Source: an uncultured Verrucomicrobiota bacterium
GTDB taxonomy: Bacteria; Verrucomicrobiota; Verrucomicrobiia; Limisphaerales; UBA9464
NCBI GenBank assembly: GCA_903842505.1
Contig: CAIMMI010000142.1
Location: 1-54,806 of the forward strand
Length of the DNA stretch: 54,806 nt
Direction of reading: 5' to 3'
Made by a program: the position numbers and the translations under genes. Below, in pieces: positions 38,412 through 50,697 of this stretch; position 1 is the stretch's first letter; each line of letters opens with the position of its first letter. The notes under the pieces are model-generated. The model saw only the letters and a program-made list of their open reading frames with translations. It was not told the DNA's origin and ran no database searches.

Positions 38412-41400
38412 ATGCGACCCATGCAAGGGGTTCCAGCGACTGCCTCCAGCGGTCCGGCGCACGCCGCATCCGTGCTGGTTCGTACTGCCGTGGGCGAGGT
38501 TTCGTCGAACGGGGTCCTGGGTGGTTTCGATAGGGCCCGCGAACTGGGATTGTGGCGCACGATGGTCTTGGCCCGGTGGGTCGACCGGATGGAGATGGAA
38601 CTGGTCAACCGGGGCGAGGCCTTCTTCCACGTGGGGGGTGCCGGCCATGAGGCCTCGGCGGTGCTCGCGTTGCATCTGGAGCCGAGGGACTGGCTGCACC
38701 TGCATTACCGGGACAAGGCCCTCATGCTCGCCCGGGGCATCCGACCGGCGGAATTCTTCCACAGCCTTCTTTGCACGGCGGCATCGCACTCGGCGGGGCG
38801 GCAGATGAGCGCGCACCTCAGCGCCCCGGAACTCCACGTGATGAGCCTCGTCGGCCCCGTGGGCAACAACGCGCTCCAGGCGGTTGGTGTGGCTCAGGAA
38901 CTGGGGCGGGCGCCCGTGGAGGCGCCGTCGGGCCGCGCGGTGGTGGTCTGTGCGATGGGCGACGGCACGACCCAACAGGGGGAAGTGCTGGAGGCGATCA
39001 GCGAGGCGGTGCGGGGTTCGTTGCCGGTGCTGTTCCTGATCGAGGACAATGGTCTGGCCATTTCGACCCAGACCCGGGGACAGACCTTCTTCCAGCACGG
39101 GGACTCGTTGGCCCGGGAATTCCTGGGTGTGCCGATCGATGCCGTCGACGGGCGCGATGTTCCGGCCTGTGATCGACTCCTGGGACAGGTGGTGCGGAGG
39201 CTCCGCTCCGGGGGTGGTCCGGCAATCGTGGTGATGCGGGTGGAGCGCTTGACCCACCACACCAACGCCGACGACGAACGGGTGTACCGCACCGAGGAGG
39301 ATCTGCGCCGGGTTCGTGATTCAGCCGATCCTGTGCGGCGGTTGGGCCAGCATTTGGTCGAGCATGGCGTCAGCCAGACGGAGTTGGTCCGCATCGAGAA
39401 CGAGGTCGAGAAGGAAGTCCGCGCAGCGGCCGAAGAAGCCCTCGCGGCGCCCAACCCGGAAGTGAACCTCGACGCACGCGCCCCATGGACCGGGCCAGCC
39501 AGCCATCGGGGAAACACGCCCGAAGTCGCCGAACCCGTGACGATGCTCGCCGCGATGCGGTCGACCCTCCGTGACGCGCTCCGGTCGGATCCCAGGGTTA
39601 CGCTGTACGGCGAGGATATCGAGGATCCCAAGGGGGATGTGTTCGGGTTGACGCGTGGGTTGACCCGCGAGTTCGCGGGGCGCGTCCGCAATTCCGCGTT
39701 GTCCGAAAGCCTGATCGTCGGGACGAGCATCGGTCGGGCTCTGGCTGGCGGACGGCCCATCGCCTTCATCCAGTTCGCCGACTTCCTTCCCCTGTGCTTC
39801 AACCAGGTGGCCTCCGAACTCGGATCGATGTGGTGGCGATCGAACGGGGGTTGGCCCTGTCCGGTCCTGATCCTGGCGCCCTGCGGCGGGTATCGTCCCG
39901 GCCTGGGCCCCTTTCATGCGCAGTCGATGGAGGCGACGTTCGCCCACATTCCCGGTCTCGATGTCCTCATGCCTTCGACGGCCGAGGATGCCGCCGGGTT
40001 GCTGCGCGGCGCGTTGGCCGGCGGACGACCGACGCTTTTCCTCTATCCCAAGGTCCTCCTGAACGACGCCTCCGTGGCAGCCAGACGCGACCTCGCGGGC
40101 GACTGCATCGCGCCCGGGGAAGCCCGGGTGGTGACGGAGGGAACCGACGTAACCCTGTTGGCTTGGGGCGCGACTGTGGCGCTCTGTCGTCGCGCAGGAG
40201 ACCAGTTGGCAACGGCGGGCGTTTCGGCCGAAGTCATCGACCTGCGCAGCATCAGTCCGTGGGATCAGGCGACGGTCCTGGCGAGCGCCCGGAAGACGTC
40301 GCGGTTGGTGGTGGTCCATGAGGACGTTCAGGCAGGTGGCTTCGGGGCTGAGGTCGCGGCGACGGTGGCGGAGGCGCTCGGATCCGGCGTGACGGTTCGG
40401 CGCGTCGCCCGTGCCGATACGTATGTCCCGTGCAATTATCCGAACCAGTTGCAAGTCCTGCCGTCCGTCCGACGGATCGTCGAGACGGTCGGCGCCCTGT
40501 GCGGGATCGAGGTAACGGTCGAGACGCAGGCGCCCGTCGCGCGGGGCGGCGACTTCGTGTTGGAGGCCGTGGGTTCGAGTCCGGCGGACCAGAACGTTTC
40601 GGTGATCGAATGGAAGGTCCGGGAAGGCCAGCGCATCCAGGCGGGGGATCCACTCGCCGAATGCGAAGCGGACAAGGCGACCTTCGACCTGCGCGCCCCG
40701 GTGGGCGGGATGATCTCAGGACTCCTGGCGCCCGGCGAACGGGTGACCGTGGGAACCCCCATGGCCCGCATCGCGCGTGATGCGGCTTCGGGCGCGCCGG
40801 TCCGGCGGATTCCCGCCGAGCCTCGCCTGATCCTGAAGCGCCGGGAAGTGGCGGCGATGAACCGGGCGACGGCGTCGCGCGATGCCATCGCCCAGGCCGG
40901 TGCCGTTTCGCCCGTGGTCGGGTTGTTGGGGCTGAGCTTTGCGACGGGATCCCGCCTGGTTTCCAACGCCGAACTGATTCACCGGTTTCCCGGCCGAACG
41001 GCAGGGGACATCGTCCAGCGGACCGGCATCGAGTCGCGCTTCTATTGTGCCGAGGATGAGTCGGTGCTGGATCTGGCCGTCCGGGCATCCACGGCCGCGC
41101 TGGCGGCCGCCGGCCTGAGCCTCGTGGATCTGGATTCAATCCTGGTCAGCACCAGCACGCCCTTGTCCATCAGCCCGAGCCTTGCGTGCAGGCTTCATCA
41201 CGCTCTTTCCCAGTCGGGGCCAACCAAGGACCTGCCGGCACACGATCTCCTCGCGGCATGCAGCGGATGGCTCTACGCCCTGCAGTCGGCGTTCGACACC
41301 TGTCGCTTGCGGCCGGGTTCCCGCATCCTGGTGGTTACGGCCGAGGCGATGTCGCGTTTCCTCAACCCCGAGGACTTCGACACCGCGATCGTCTTCGGCG

Positions 41401-41879
41401 ATGCGGCTTCTGCAGTGATCGTCCAGGGAGGCGATGCGGCGGCGGCGTGTCCGATCCGCCTGCATCGGCCCCTGCTCAGCGCGCGGGGTGAGGATGGATC
41501 GATCCTGAACGTGGGACGGATGACGGGATCGAACTGCGCGCCGGTGGAGATGCATGGGGTGCGGGTCTTCCCGCTCGCCGTGCGCCAGATGAACGCGATG
41601 CTTCAGGAAGCCTGCGCGGAGGCGGATCTGGGAATCCAGGACCTCGACTGGATCGTCCCCCACCAGGCCAACGGCCGGATCATCGCAGCGGCCCAGCAAC
41701 GCTCGGGACTTCCCGCGGACCGGGTCATCAGCAACGTGGCGCGCTACGGCAATACCTCGTCGTCCAGCATCCCGATCGCCCTGGCCGAGATGCTCGCGGA
41801 CGGACGCCACGGTCGGGTCGGTCTCGCCGCGTTCGGGGGCGGGTTCACTTTCGGAGCTGCCGTCGCGGAGATGGGGTGA
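38412..41879 (+). CDS. Fusion of 2-oxoacid dehydrogenase E1-alpha, E1-beta, lipoyl domain and beta-ketoacyl-ACP synthase III
   Basis: One 1155-residue polypeptide with four parts. Residues about 40-345 are E1-alpha, with the thiamine diphosphate motif GDG (183-185) to EDNGLAIST (Asn213). Residues 375-705 are E1-beta (TLYGEDIEDPKG with Glu401, ALSESLIVGTSIGRALAGGR, FHAQSMEATFAHIPGL). Residues 714-790 are a lipoyl domain with ECEADKATFDL, Lys755 being the attachment site. Residues 835-1155 are KAS III (FabH-like) with triad Cys950 (AACSGW), His1084 (PHQANGR) and Asn1114 (GNTSSSSIP). No E2 acyltransferase (HxxxDG) or E3 domain is present. The equivalents of FabH Trp32 and Arg151, which hold the CoA adenine, are Asp866 and Phe989. 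I infer an enzyme that passes an acyl group from a 2-oxoacid through the lipoyl arm to prime fatty-acid or polyketide synthesis. ACP and elongation genes are not adjacent. The gene end overlaps the GH13 gene by 35 bases. Confidence 0.93.
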   Translation: MRPMQGVPATASSGPAHAASVLVRTAVGEVSSNGVLGGFDRARELGLWRTMVLARWVDRMEMELVNRGEAFFHVGGAGHEASAVLALHLEPRDWLHLHYRDKALMLARGIRPAEFFHSLLCTAASHSAGRQMSAHLSAPELHVMSLVGPVGNNALQAVGVAQELGRAPVEAPSGRAVVVCAMGDGTTQQGEVLEAISEAVRGSLPVLFLIEDNGLAISTQTRGQTFFQHGDSLAREFLGVPIDAVDGRDVPACDRLLGQVVRRLRSGGGPAIVVMRVERLTHHTNADDERVYRTEEDLRRVRDSADPVRRLGQHLVEHGVSQTELVRIENEVEKEVRAAAEEALAAPNPEVNLDARAPWTGPASHRGNTPEVAEPVTMLAAMRSTLRDALRSDPRVTLYGEDIEDPKGDVFGLTRGLTREFAGRVRNSALSESLIVGTSIGRALAGGRPIAFIQFADFLPLCFNQVASELGSMWWRSNGGWPCPVLILAPCGGYRPGLGPFHAQSMEATFAHIPGLDVLMPSTAEDAAGLLRGALAGGRPTLFLYPKVLLNDASVAARRDLAGDCIAPGEARVVTEGTDVTLLAWGATVALCRRAGDQLATAGVSAEVIDLRSISPWDQATVLASARKTSRLVVVHEDVQAGGFGAEVAATVAEALGSGVTVRRVARADTYVPCNYPNQLQVLPSVRRIVETVGALCGIEVTVETQAPVARGGDFVLEAVGSSPADQNVSVIEWKVREGQRIQAGDPLAECEADKATFDLRAPVGGMISGLLAPGERVTVGTPMARIARDAASGAPVRRIPAEPRLILKRREVAAMNRATASRDAIAQAGAVSPVVGLLGLSFATGSRLVSNAELIHRFPGRTAGDIVQRTGIESRFYCAEDESVLDLAVRASTAALAAAGLSLVDLDSILVSTSTPLSISPSLACRLHHALSQSGPTKDLPAHDLLAACSGWLYALQSAFDTCRLRPGSRILVVTAEAMSRFLNPEDFDTAIVFGDAASAVIVQGGDAAAACPIRLHRPLLSARGEDGSILNVGRMTGSNCAPVEMHGVRVFPLAVRQMNAMLQEACAEADLGIQDLDWIVPHQANGRIIAAAQQRSGLPADRVISNVARYGNTSSSSIPIALAEMLADGRHGRVGLAAFGGGFTFGAAVAEMG

Positions 41880-47343: not shown

Positions 47344-47523
47344 CGGGTTTTCCCGAGAAAGTAGAAATTTTTCTCAGGCACGCATCCGGGCGGGGGTGGA
47401 CTTGAAATGGAAGGGTGTCAGTCCCGACTCGCTGTTCGCTGGGTCGAGGATGGATGCGAGCGTTTCTGGAGGGCTTCTTGCGCCGTGCTGTCCGCTTCTG
47501 CAGGGTGCGAATCACAGCAATCC

Positions 47524-50500
47524 ATGAACACGAGACGAAGTTGGACAAATCCAGTCGGGAAGGGGATGCAGCGACGGGGGACGGCTGTGTTCCTGATCCT
47601 CGCAGCGGTCTGGATGACCCTGAGGACGGCGGCGGCACCGCTGGATCCCCCGCGCCTGCGACCTGGCCTGGGAATCCTATTGAGCGGCGATGGCGCCACG
47701 AATCGTGTCCACACGCTGGAAAGTTCGCCGGACCTGCGGCAATGGCGTCCCGCGGCGGTGCTTCACCACGCCGGATGGGAGTTCACGGACGTGATGCAGG
47801 AGAACCCGGAGCGGTCCGGCTTCTTCCGGCTCCAGTCGAGGGCGATCGGACCGAACGATGACGGTCGGAATCACGTTCGGGTTCCAATGGACCCTTTTGC
47901 CAACGAGGATCCGGACTTGTTCTCCGGGGCGCCTGCGGTTCGGTGGATCAAGTTCGCGGTCGATCTCAATGAACCGGGGCGGATCTGGTTTCAGGACAGC
48001 CGGCGTTACGCGTTTCACTACGACTGGGCCCGGCTACGACTGGCTCCATTCCTCGGACTTACCCGGCAACAGTTCGACGCGGTGACGCTGCGGCGTCCCG
48101 GTCGGCGTGGAATCCTGGGCGCGGTATTGATCCCCGGGGACTCCCGTGTCCCCGAGTTTGGCGTGCAGTTGGTGGGGCAGGACGAGTTTACGCGTGAGGA
48201 GGTGGCCGAGGTGATGCGACGGGTGATTGCGTCGGTGCAAGCCCAGGAGGGAAGCCGGGGCTTCTACGTTCCCACCCAGGAGCAGTCCGCGATGGCCCAG
48301 CGCGAACAGACCTGGCTGGAAGGGCAGGGAATCCGGGTGACCGGCGCGGATCGGTGGCTGAGTGGGGACGCTGTCTACAGTGCAGGCTGGGCCTTTGGCC
48401 GGCTCGTTTACGTGCCGTCGGCCCGGATTGCTGCGGCGTATGCATCGGGTGACCTGCGTCCGAAAGACATCCTCCTGACGGACGTGGTTCCGGCGGAAGT
48501 CCCGTTCGTCGCTGGGATCCTCACGCTCACTCCAGCGACGCCGAACTCCCACGTGGCGATCCTTGCGAGGACCTATGGGGTGCCGTTCGGATGGTCAGCG
48601 GATGAAGCGCTGCGGCAGGCGATCGTGTCGTGGAATGGGCACGAGGTGATCGTCCGGATGGACGAGGGGCGGGGGTCGGTCTCGGTGCTGGATGCAACGG
48701 GTCAGTTCGATGCGGGGTTAAGGGCCGAGTTGGAGAGGCGGAAGACGGTCAAGCCCCTCCAACTGACTCCGAAGGTCCGGTTGGGGGCGTATTGGACCAA
48801 CACGACCCATCTCAAGCCCGCCGACGTGCGATTCGTCGGCGGGAAGGCTTCGAACTACGGATTGCTCCGGCGGATCTTGCCGACGAACTCCCAGCCGGCC
48901 ATCGGGATCACCTTCGACCTGTGGGACGACTTCATGCAGCAATCGGTCCCGGGCGGCCGAACGCTCCGGGAGGAGATCTCCGCGCGGTTGGGATTGGTGA
49001 CGTACCCCCCACCGGATGTAGCCGCCGTCACAGCCCAATTGGCATCGGTGCGGGATCTGATCCGGCGCACGGCCCGGTTCAGCCCGACGCAGCAGACCGC
49101 GATCATCGGGTTGTTGCAGGACTCCGGATTGCCCGTCGGGCGGAAACTTCGGTTCCGGAGTTCGACGAATGTCGAAGACAACGAGCAGTTCACCGGGGCA
49201 GGGCTCTACGACAGCTACAGCGGATGCCTGACGGATGACCTCGATGGGGATTCCGCGGGGCCCTCGGCGTGCGACCCGGCTGAGCCCGAGGAGCGCGGGG
49301 TTTTCCGAGCCATCCAACGGGTCTACGCGAGCTTCTATAATGACAACGCCTTCCTGGAACGTCGCCGCCTCGGCGTGGACGAATCGATCGTCGGAATGGC
49401 CATCCTCGTGCACGAATCGTTTCCGGATGAGGACGAGATGGCCAATGGCGTGACGACGTTGGACTGGGAAGCGGGCTTCGGTGGGGCACCTTCGACTTCC
49501 TGGCGCATGGTGACGCAGGTGGGGGCGGAGTCGGTGACCAATCCCGAGAGCACCGCGCGTCCGGAGGTCGTGGAGGGCTACCGCTACGGGAAAGACTATT
49601 CGGTGGCACTCCGGGAGTCCTCGGCCCGGGTGCCGCTGGGCGCCTCCGTCCTGACATGGGATTCGGAGTACCTCAGCTTCGGACGATTGTTCAACCGCGT
49701 GGCCGATGCCTATGCCCCATTGGCGGCCGGTCGGACCTCGTACAGTCTGGATTTCGAGTTCAAGAAGTCGGCCTCGAGGGGTTGGCAGATCAAGCAGGTG
49801 AGACCGCTACCGAAGCCTGCCACGTCCGGGACAGTCACTCCCGTGATGGTCGACCAAGTCGTCGATCTGTGCGTGTTGCAGGGCGAGTTTGGGGAAGTTT
49901 TCGGGATGCACCGCCTGAAGTCCAAGTGGCAGGTCTCCCTGAAGCCGGGATTGCTCACCGCCCCGAACCTCCAGGCGAGTATCGTGCGGTCTGCGACGGT
50001 GACCCTGAGCACCTCGGGCGGGGCCGTGACCTGGAGCAACGGACCTGCGCAGTGGCCTGGACAGGGATTCCGGCGGACGGCCGAGGGGACGCTGGACTGG
50101 CTCGAAACCGGAACCGGCGCCACGCGTCGTCGGATCGTGCTCGATACCGTCGTACCCACGTCCCTTTCCGCCGCTTCGATACCCATCCTGACGCCGGCGG
50201 ATCTGAACTATCGCCTGCAGGCGGAGTACGGCACCCCGCAGGTTTCGATCGACTGGACCGGGCCCACGACGACGACACTGGACCACGCGCAATTGGGACC
50301 CTGTGTTCCCGTGACGGCGTCGAGCCTCCCGCAGGAACGCCAAATCACGGTGGGCGGAAACATCCGGATCGTGACCCGGTTCTACTGGCCGGAGCCGCCC
50401 AAGGGCCCCTCGGCGGGATACACGGCGCCGTGCATCGGCTGGATCGGGACGACGATCACGGGGCTGACCACAGTCCCCGTCGAACTCCGAGCCGATGCCG

Positions 50501-50697
50501 CCCAGACGTACCATCCGTTCCACCACAATTTCTCGGAGGAATTCCTCTTCGAACCGGGGCTGGAGCCGGCGCTGAGCACGGCCCAGCGCGAGGAACTGAT
50601 GGCGAAGAACATCCGGCTGTTGCATGTCGACTGGGATCAGCAGACAGGGAGCCTTCGGGTGGTGGGACTGGACGGAAAAATGCGGACGGGGCCGTGA
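47524..50697 (+). CDS. Exported protein with PEP-utilising His-type and PEP/pyruvate-binding domains
   Basis: A 1057-residue protein from ATG 47524 with hydrophobic leader RGTAVFLILAAVWMTLRTAA; ATG 47566 just before it is an alternative start. A short ESSPDLRQWRPA...GFFRLQ block, common in secreted Verrucomicrobial proteins, follows. At residues about 315-380 comes a segment like the mobile phosphohistidine domain: TPNSHVAILARTYGVPFGW, His343 being the candidate phosphohistidine. From about 435 the PEP/pyruvate-binding ATP-grasp domain begins, with VGGKASNYGLLRR (Lys441) and RSSTNVEDNEQFTGAGLYDS (545-564). In cytoplasmic PEP synthase the ATP-grasp domain comes first. The last 240 residues are beta-rich with no match. 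The role is unknown. It converges with the phosphatase-like gene. Confidence 0.72.
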   Translation: MNTRRSWTNPVGKGMQRRGTAVFLILAAVWMTLRTAAAPLDPPRLRPGLGILLSGDGATNRVHTLESSPDLRQWRPAAVLHHAGWEFTDVMQENPERSGFFRLQSRAIGPNDDGRNHVRVPMDPFANEDPDLFSGAPAVRWIKFAVDLNEPGRIWFQDSRRYAFHYDWARLRLAPFLGLTRQQFDAVTLRRPGRRGILGAVLIPGDSRVPEFGVQLVGQDEFTREEVAEVMRRVIASVQAQEGSRGFYVPTQEQSAMAQREQTWLEGQGIRVTGADRWLSGDAVYSAGWAFGRLVYVPSARIAAAYASGDLRPKDILLTDVVPAEVPFVAGILTLTPATPNSHVAILARTYGVPFGWSADEALRQAIVSWNGHEVIVRMDEGRGSVSVLDATGQFDAGLRAELERRKTVKPLQLTPKVRLGAYWTNTTHLKPADVRFVGGKASNYGLLRRILPTNSQPAIGITFDLWDDFMQQSVPGGRTLREEISARLGLVTYPPPDVAAVTAQLASVRDLIRRTARFSPTQQTAIIGLLQDSGLPVGRKLRFRSSTNVEDNEQFTGAGLYDSYSGCLTDDLDGDSAGPSACDPAEPEERGVFRAIQRVYASFYNDNAFLERRRLGVDESIVGMAILVHESFPDEDEMANGVTTLDWEAGFGGAPSTSWRMVTQVGAESVTNPESTARPEVVEGYRYGKDYSVALRESSARVPLGASVLTWDSEYLSFGRLFNRVADAYAPLAAGRTSYSLDFEFKKSASRGWQIKQVRPLPKPATSGTVTPVMVDQVVDLCVLQGEFGEVFGMHRLKSKWQVSLKPGLLTAPNLQASIVRSATVTLSTSGGAVTWSNGPAQWPGQGFRRTAEGTLDWLETGTGATRRRIVLDTVVPTSLSAASIPILTPADLNYRLQAEYGTPQVSIDWTGPTTTTLDHAQLGPCVPVTASSLPQERQITVGGNIRIVTRFYWPEPPKGPSAGYTAPCIGWIGTTITGLTTVPVELRADAAQTYHPFHHNFSEEFLFEPGLEPALSTAQREELMAKNIRLLHVDWDQQTGSLRVVGLDGKMRTGP

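Follow-up and report, generated by a model that had tools for sequence, protein, structure and literature searches.

How might a bacterium prime a fatty acid when the enzyme that activates the starter and the enzyme that uses it are parts of one protein? The question is raised by a gene in a 54,806-nucleotide stretch of DNA, here called the window, which is contig CAIMMI010000142.1 (C142) of the 5.2-Mb, 362-contig genome of an uncultured Verrucomicrobiota bacterium (assembly GCA_903842505.1; the home genome). In the textbook bacterial route to branched-chain fatty acids, a 2-oxoacid is converted to acyl-coenzyme A (acyl-CoA), which is used by FabH, a ketoacyl-acyl carrier protein (ACP) synthase III (KAS III). 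The gene in question joins the E1-alpha and E1-beta parts of a 2-oxoacid dehydrogenase, a lipoyl domain, and a KAS III. We propose, with a probability of about 0.7, that this fusion primes branched, most likely iso, fatty acids on its own, its lipoyl arm passing the acyl group to Cys950 in the KAS III. The acyl group would thus probably be handed straight between E1 and KAS III, without free acyl-CoA. The parts of the gene are as follows.

38412 to 41879, + strand: the whole gene, an open frame from ATG to TGA, encoding the 1155-aa E1-alpha/E1-beta/lipoyl/KAS III protein
38556 to 39464, + strand: E1-alpha (Pfam E1_dh, residues 49-351), with the thiamine pyrophosphate (TPP) motif G183-D184-G185...N213 and with His283 in an HHTNADD loop
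39537 to 40454, + strand: E1-beta (Pfam Transket_pyr, residues 376-550, and Transketolase_C, residues 569-681), with Glu432 and His502
40596 to 40772, + strand: lipoyl domain (Pfam Biotin_lipoyl, residues 729-787), with the codon of Lys755 at 40674-40676
40782 to 40916, + strand: linker between the lipoyl domain and the KAS III (about residues 791-835), variable in the alignment and poorly ordered by predicted local distance difference test (pLDDT) score
40920 to 41873, + strand: FabH-like KAS III (PRK09352, residues 837-1154), with the codons of Cys950 at 41259-41261, His1084 at 41661-41663, and Asn1114 at 41751-41753

The single-chain fusion, first described in an earlier note on this DNA, is confirmed. 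All six of its Pfam domains score above the curated cut-offs, including the two in the KAS III region (ACP_syn_III, residues 945-1009, and ACP_syn_III_C, residues 1068-1153), and Lys755, Cys950, His1084, and Asn1114 sit where that note had placed them. The Pfam scan of the chain detected no E2 catalytic domain, as the note had also stated, and no E3-binding domain. The KAS III passes the NCBIfam model PRK09352 (257.3 bits; cut-off, 249) and misses the cut-off of the fabH model TIGR00747 (226.8 versus 292.1 bits). An assembly error or frameshift as the origin of the fusion, a possibility left by the earlier note, is rejected because the architecture is conserved across genomes and classes of Verrucomicrobiota. 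It occurs also in the single-contig genomes G473 and G678, and 21 homologues aligned over nearly their whole length share 58-69% identity with no internal stop. Codon-position G+C content follows one pattern through all ten tenths of the gene (77-86% at position 3), which gives no hint that the frame is broken. An AlphaFold model built with 28 sequences has a mean pLDDT of 82.6 and a predicted template modeling score of 0.68; pLDDT falls below 50 in residues 1-37, in short loops, and in parts of the linker (796-800 and 813-831). Given the first of these regions, and since homology to relatives begins at about residue 40, the true start of the gene may lie a little downstream. In a Foldseek search with the model, the E1-beta chain of a Thermus branched-chain enzyme (1um9_B) ranked first, and E. 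coli FabH (1hn9; root-mean-square deviation, 2.0) came in seventh place.

Nine positions (G183, N213, H283, E432, H502, K755, C950, H1084, and N1114) are invariant in all 46 aligned fusions, in line with the earlier statement that the catalytic motifs are kept; D184 (44/46), G185 (41/46), and H135 (29/46) are less constant. The E1 is of the alpha2beta2 type, with E1_dh, Transket_pyr, Transketolase_C, and the TPP motif all present, and the C-terminal part has both the fold and the Cys-His-Asn triad of a KAS III. We matched H283 to its counterpart by a sequence motif, and H502 by E1-beta alignments together with a motif. On this basis H283 and H502 appear to be the counterparts of His291-alpha and His146-beta' of human branched-chain 2-oxoacid dehydrogenase (BCKDH), two residues whose role in reductive acylation has been studied according to the information given with entry 1ols.

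What sets the fused KAS III apart is the loss of the contacts to the adenine of CoA. In FabH, as described in PMC4606726, the adenine of CoA is stacked between Trp32 and Arg151 and bonded to Thr28, and the phosphopantetheine is held by Arg36 and two Asn residues. Alignment with E. coli FabH places three residues of the window protein as follows.

41007 to 41009, + strand: Asp866, at the position of Trp32 (stacking on the CoA adenine)
41376 to 41378, + strand: Phe989, at the position of Arg151 (other face of the CoA adenine)
41172 to 41174, + strand: Ser921, at the position of Phe87

Taking Trp32 and Arg151 as a proxy for acyl-CoA as donor, we found neither residue in any of the 46 fused domains and both in 29 of 30 separate KAS III proteins. 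The latter comprise the top-scoring locus from each of 29 same-class genomes, carriers and noncarriers alike, plus one further locus; weaker paralogues fall outside the 30 counted. Across the fusions the Trp32 position is Asp, Glu, Lys, or Ala and the Arg151 position is Phe, Tyr, Pro, Gln, or Ala, and the Thr28 counterpart is gone in all 46. Asn247 and Arg249 are kept in all 46 and Arg36 in 39. Because the Thr28, Trp32, and Arg151 counterparts are gone while Asn247 and Arg36 are mostly kept, the contacts that serve CoA only, those to adenine, appear to be lost, and much of the part common to ACP and CoA, which holds the pantetheine arm, appears to be retained. Arg249 we take to be the ACP docking residue. 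Phe87, presumably the gate of the acyl pocket, is replaced by Ser or Thr in 46/46 fusions, versus Phe (25), Leu (3), Met (1), or Val (1) in the 30 separate proteins; a smaller residue there is expected for a bulkier acyl group.

These features suggest the following reaction sequence. The E1 part would decarboxylate a 2-oxoacid, probably 2-oxoisovalerate, and reductively acylate a lipoyl group predicted to be carried on Lys755. The swinging lipoyl arm would then bring the acyl group to Cys950, replacing acyl-CoA, and the KAS III would use this group in a condensation with malonyl-ACP that forms the first 3-oxoacyl-ACP. The resulting dihydrolipoyl arm could be reoxidized by the ordinary dihydrolipoyl dehydrogenase (E3) of the cell. 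The earlier note had proposed such a transfer, and its interpretation is supported and extended here, with the direct passage from lipoyl group to cysteine as the step that we infer. If this is correct, part of the phylum bypasses the acyl-CoA pool and ties the choice of starter to one protein, and lipoyl arms can supply condensing enzymes as well as E2.

Fatty acid profiles bear on the substrate. Iso acids of even chain length require an isobutyryl starter, which is what 2-oxoisovalerate would be expected to yield. In genome G443, which we took as that of Pontiella agarivorans, the fusion is the only E1_dh match (E <= 1e-10). The major acids given for P. agarivorans in PMC10880615 are C18:0, i-C12:0, i-C18:0, and i-C14:0, accompanied by C16:0, i-C16:0, C20:0, and i-C20:0. 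Since a carrier whose only E1_dh match is the fusion makes even iso acids, this profile points, circumstantially, to an isobutyryl starter and thus to 2-oxoisovalerate as the likely substrate. For two other Pontiella species, i-C12:0, i-C14:0, and i-C18:0 are listed among the major acids, and for Kiritimatiella glycovorans 42% i-C14:0, in PMC7356697. The putative genomes of those Pontiella species (G728 and G732, of the same genus as G443) encode the fusion and a second E1_dh gene each. The proposed reaction, if real, would account for the even-numbered iso type of the branched acids that some of these bacteria are reported to have, and would offer a simple genetic tool for making them.

The taxonomic survey that the earlier note had called for, run here within Verrucomicrobiota genomes, found many carriers in more than one class. 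Near the home genome, and counting it, 24 of 58 genomes have the fusion, two of these being cut by contig ends. Matches were found in 72 of 384 genomes of the same class, of which 15 are full length and the other 57 stop by residue 840. Across the whole phylum, a match at E <= 1e-150 was found in 37 of 387 genomes and is nearly full length in 35. In another class, that of G473, 55 of 288 genomes match, 47 of them along almost the entire protein and 8 in part. A scan of contigs with the single protein gave one named locus only, in the Verrucomicrobiales metagenome-assembled genome D8_MAG_00040, and a tblastn search of plasmids gave 1010 matching records, none with one place covering 80% of the query.

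In a tree of E1 sequences, 35 KAS III fusions are set apart from the rest by a branch that has 99% support in the Shimodaira-Hasegawa-like approximate likelihood ratio test (SH-aLRT), and in a tree of KAS III sequences the fused domains are split from 31 stand-alone ones, again with 99% SH-aLRT. The first tree has 56 rows, namely the 35 KAS III fusions (17 from a set of 28, and 18 others), 14 fusions to E2, 4 further E1 proteins of Verrucomicrobiota, and 3 from Streptomyces, and leaves out the partial locus L033 and repeats of the same genomes. In the second, 18 of the set of 28 are compared with 31 stand-alone proteins, one of them E. coli FabH. The two are quick trees that were rooted at the midpoint and carry no bootstrap values. 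The pattern fits a single fusion event, undated and early within the phylum.

Each part of the protein has known relatives. With the BCKDH complex (E1 alpha2beta2, E2, and E3) the fusion shares the E1-alpha and E1-beta domains, the catalytic residues, and the lipoyl Lys, and it differs in being one chain, in having a KAS III in the place of E2, and in that no E3-binding domain was found. With FabH it shares the KAS III fold, the Cys-His-Asn triad, and Arg249, but it has an attached acyl supply and has lost the CoA-adenine residues. Closer in layout are proteins of other Verrucomicrobiota families in which the same order of E1-alpha, E1-beta, and lipoyl domain in one frame is followed by an E2-type domain, so that E2 takes the place of the KAS III. 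PF00198 is in frame in 5/5 such genomes (G071, G080, G088, G220, and G224), and the E1-lipoyl-E2 order was confirmed with Pfam on one of the proteins. An E2-like C-terminal motif occurs in 14 of the 15 proteins of loci L040-L054, whereas the frame read for the fifteenth (L046) contains only E1. Measured between stop codons, 12 of the 14 chains span 1012-1140 aa and two are longer. Their E2 motif is HxxxNG in 14/14, and the separate E2 genes that a similar pattern recognized, at 15 of 16 loci, have HxxxDG, a count that omits the two E2 genes of the home genome and E. coli AceF. Unlike the fusion, these proteins end in E2, and in the tree their E1 sequences are separate from those of the KAS III fusions.

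A second kind of relative is found on the Streptomyces plasmids NZ_CP061282.1, NZ_CP108424.1, and NZ_CP109590.1, where a fused E1-alpha/beta with 38-40% identity to the fusion is encoded directly before a megasynthase that starts lipoyl-E2-ACP-ketosynthase, with the E2 motif FDHTVLNG or FDHTVFNG. As in the fusion, a fused E1 is followed by a lipoyl domain ahead of a condensing domain; the differences are that two proteins are involved and that the ketosynthase is part of a megasynthase and not a KAS III. The E1 together with the lipoyl-E2-ACP start looks like a dehydrogenase-type loading module, and from its position relatives of the window E1 may load ACPs. At the three plasmid loci (L131, 11968-17001; L132, 9908-14937; L133, 9968-14993) the megasynthase is annotated only as a non-ribosomal peptide synthetase.

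Viewed together, these systems suggest that the general use of the E1-lipoyl branch is CoA-free acyl transfer into carrier-protein pathways, for which some lineages would employ an altered E2 and this one a KAS III. We found no title or abstract in the open-access literature that describes this architecture or a direct lipoyl-to-KAS transfer. Every part is known, but the arrangement and the predicted overall reaction have no match among the systems that we found. We think it somewhat probable that the phylum has a single-chain enzyme, with a KAS III replacing E2, that begins branched fatty acid synthesis from a 2-oxoacid and malonyl-ACP without free acyl-CoA. This enzyme, the E1-lipoyl-E2 proteins with HxxxNG, and the Streptomyces modules would then form a wider, unrecognized class of dehydrogenase-type acyl loaders that do not use CoA.

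Other explanations of the same architecture differ in what they change. The mechanism could be the direct one proposed here with pyruvate or some other 2-oxoacid as the main substrate, so that the product is acetoacetyl-ACP or some special starter for lipids instead of an iso acid. Substrate choice is not readable from sequence alone; the NCBIfam E1 matches shown, PDH (pyruvate dehydrogenase) models among them, are all far below their cut-offs; and among solved E1-beta chains a pyruvate dehydrogenase entry (1ik6_A, 3.6e-55, which we take to be of the Pyrobaculum type) is almost as close as the Thermus 2-oxoacid dehydrogenase 1um9_B (1.4e-55). The Ser or Thr at the Phe87 position in every fusion argues for a larger acyl group, the even iso acids described for P. 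agarivorans in PMC10880615 also speak against pyruvate, and we regard this alternative as unlikely. Somewhat less likely is that the KAS III is purely an acyltransferase, with no condensing role, that takes acyl groups off the lipoyl arm and loads them onto an ACP or a different carrier, in the manner of CerJ, ChlB3, or a loader of the naphthyridinomycin and dnacin type. The position of the Streptomyces E1 genes before a lipoyl-E2-ACP-ketosynthase protein is in its favor, and in the dnacin cluster a KAS III encoded with transketolase-like and ACP genes, with homologues for naphthyridinomycin, is a proposed acyl loader in PMC7570522. As in the fusion, a TPP enzyme, a carrier, and a KAS III are combined in these proposed carbon-unit loaders (NapB/NapD/NapC/NapE and DinU/DinS/DinT/DinQ), but they are separate proteins in antibiotic clusters that take a hydroxyethyl unit from a ketose phosphate. 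The fusion is one stand-alone gene, and its substrate is probably an amino acid-derived oxoacid. The arrangement of such C2 loaders (several genes in an antibiotic cluster with their own ACP) was not found among the 26 fusion loci compared, nor was an ACP gene or biosynthetic cluster common to these loci. All 46 fusions have Cys-His-Asn (the Asn at the FabH Asn274 position) versus Cys-His-Asp for ChlB3 and CerJ as given in PMC9573744, a comparison by description that is not conclusive.

We consider least probable of all that a free E2, such as that of PDH, cooperates with the E1-lipoyl part to make ordinary branched acyl-CoA for the attached or a separate KAS III, the fusion merely bringing the enzymes together. 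At least one E2 was found in 30/31 genomes searched and in 29/29 of a second set, and most of the E1 catalytic positions checked are invariant, as such a role would allow. This explanation is at odds with the absence of CoA-adenine contacts from all 46 fused KAS III domains and with G024, a fusion carrier (90% complete) in which no E2 match was found, and no E2 gene is common to the fusion neighborhoods. The home genome, for which the earlier note had raised the possibility of a cognate E2, encodes two E2 genes. One passes SucB models and adjoins SucA and E3. The other has the PDH E2 model TIGR01348 as its best match (452.6 bits, below the cut-off of 552.1) and lies together with an E3 gene on contig C98 (L075, 10473-13307), with a homodimeric-type PDH E1, AceE, on C214. 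Two E3 enzymes are thus encoded, and beyond the fusion the E1_dh matches are SucA and a weak one (33 bits) on a 670-aa frame. Since both E2 genes resemble those of PDH and 2-oxoglutarate dehydrogenase, none is plainly left over for the fusion; the PDH-like one could act with it in trans. In G443 the sole E2 match is 1.5 kb from an AceE match.

Several observations weigh against direct priming by the fusion. Loss of Trp32 and Arg151 is in itself not proof of CoA independence: one separate KAS III (L119) has neither residue and may use CoA all the same, and the set of separate proteins does not cover the genomes behind 18 of the 46 fusions. Among the fused domains, 7/46 lack Arg36, the residue at the Asn210 position varies, and only 8/46 have Lys214. 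The Thermus E1-beta is only marginally closer than the pyruvate dehydrogenase chain, and the fatty acid profiles come from Pontiella and Kiritimatiella species, not from the organism of the window. Carriers also have other possible routes. Separate KAS III genes coexist with the fusion in those searched, a further E1_dh gene of 822-853 aa is present in G728, G732, G473, G439, G421, and G624, and G650 has six more. Matches to POR_N, of the 2-oxoacid:ferredoxin oxidoreductase type, were found in 17/17 genomes searched; such an oxidoreductase could therefore supply isobutyryl-CoA to an ordinary FabH. Finally, the fusion is patchy, occurring in 5/8 genomes of the same genus and in 22/34 of the same genus or family, many of them incomplete. 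Three genomes of the genus gave no fusion match at E <= 1e-50 (G001, G002, and G007; G007 is 93% and G002 66% complete), so the trait is patchy within the genus or was lost.

Genomic context gives the fusion no constant partner. A comparison of 26 fusion loci (frames of at least 70 aa, by blastp) found no neighbor shared by more than 5, several of the loci being on short contigs, and the best-shared sets of neighbors come mostly from one genus. The fusion gene therefore seems to work alone, as would suit a stand-alone enzyme of primary metabolism. Placement in a secondary-metabolite cluster was considered and rejected on the same comparison. In the window, the gene lies between one for a beta-propeller-repeat protein and a convergent amylase-like gene. 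Elsewhere in the window, positions 47407-50697 encode a protein of 1096 aa that has a PPDK_N domain and matches PEP-utilizers weakly, below the cut-off.

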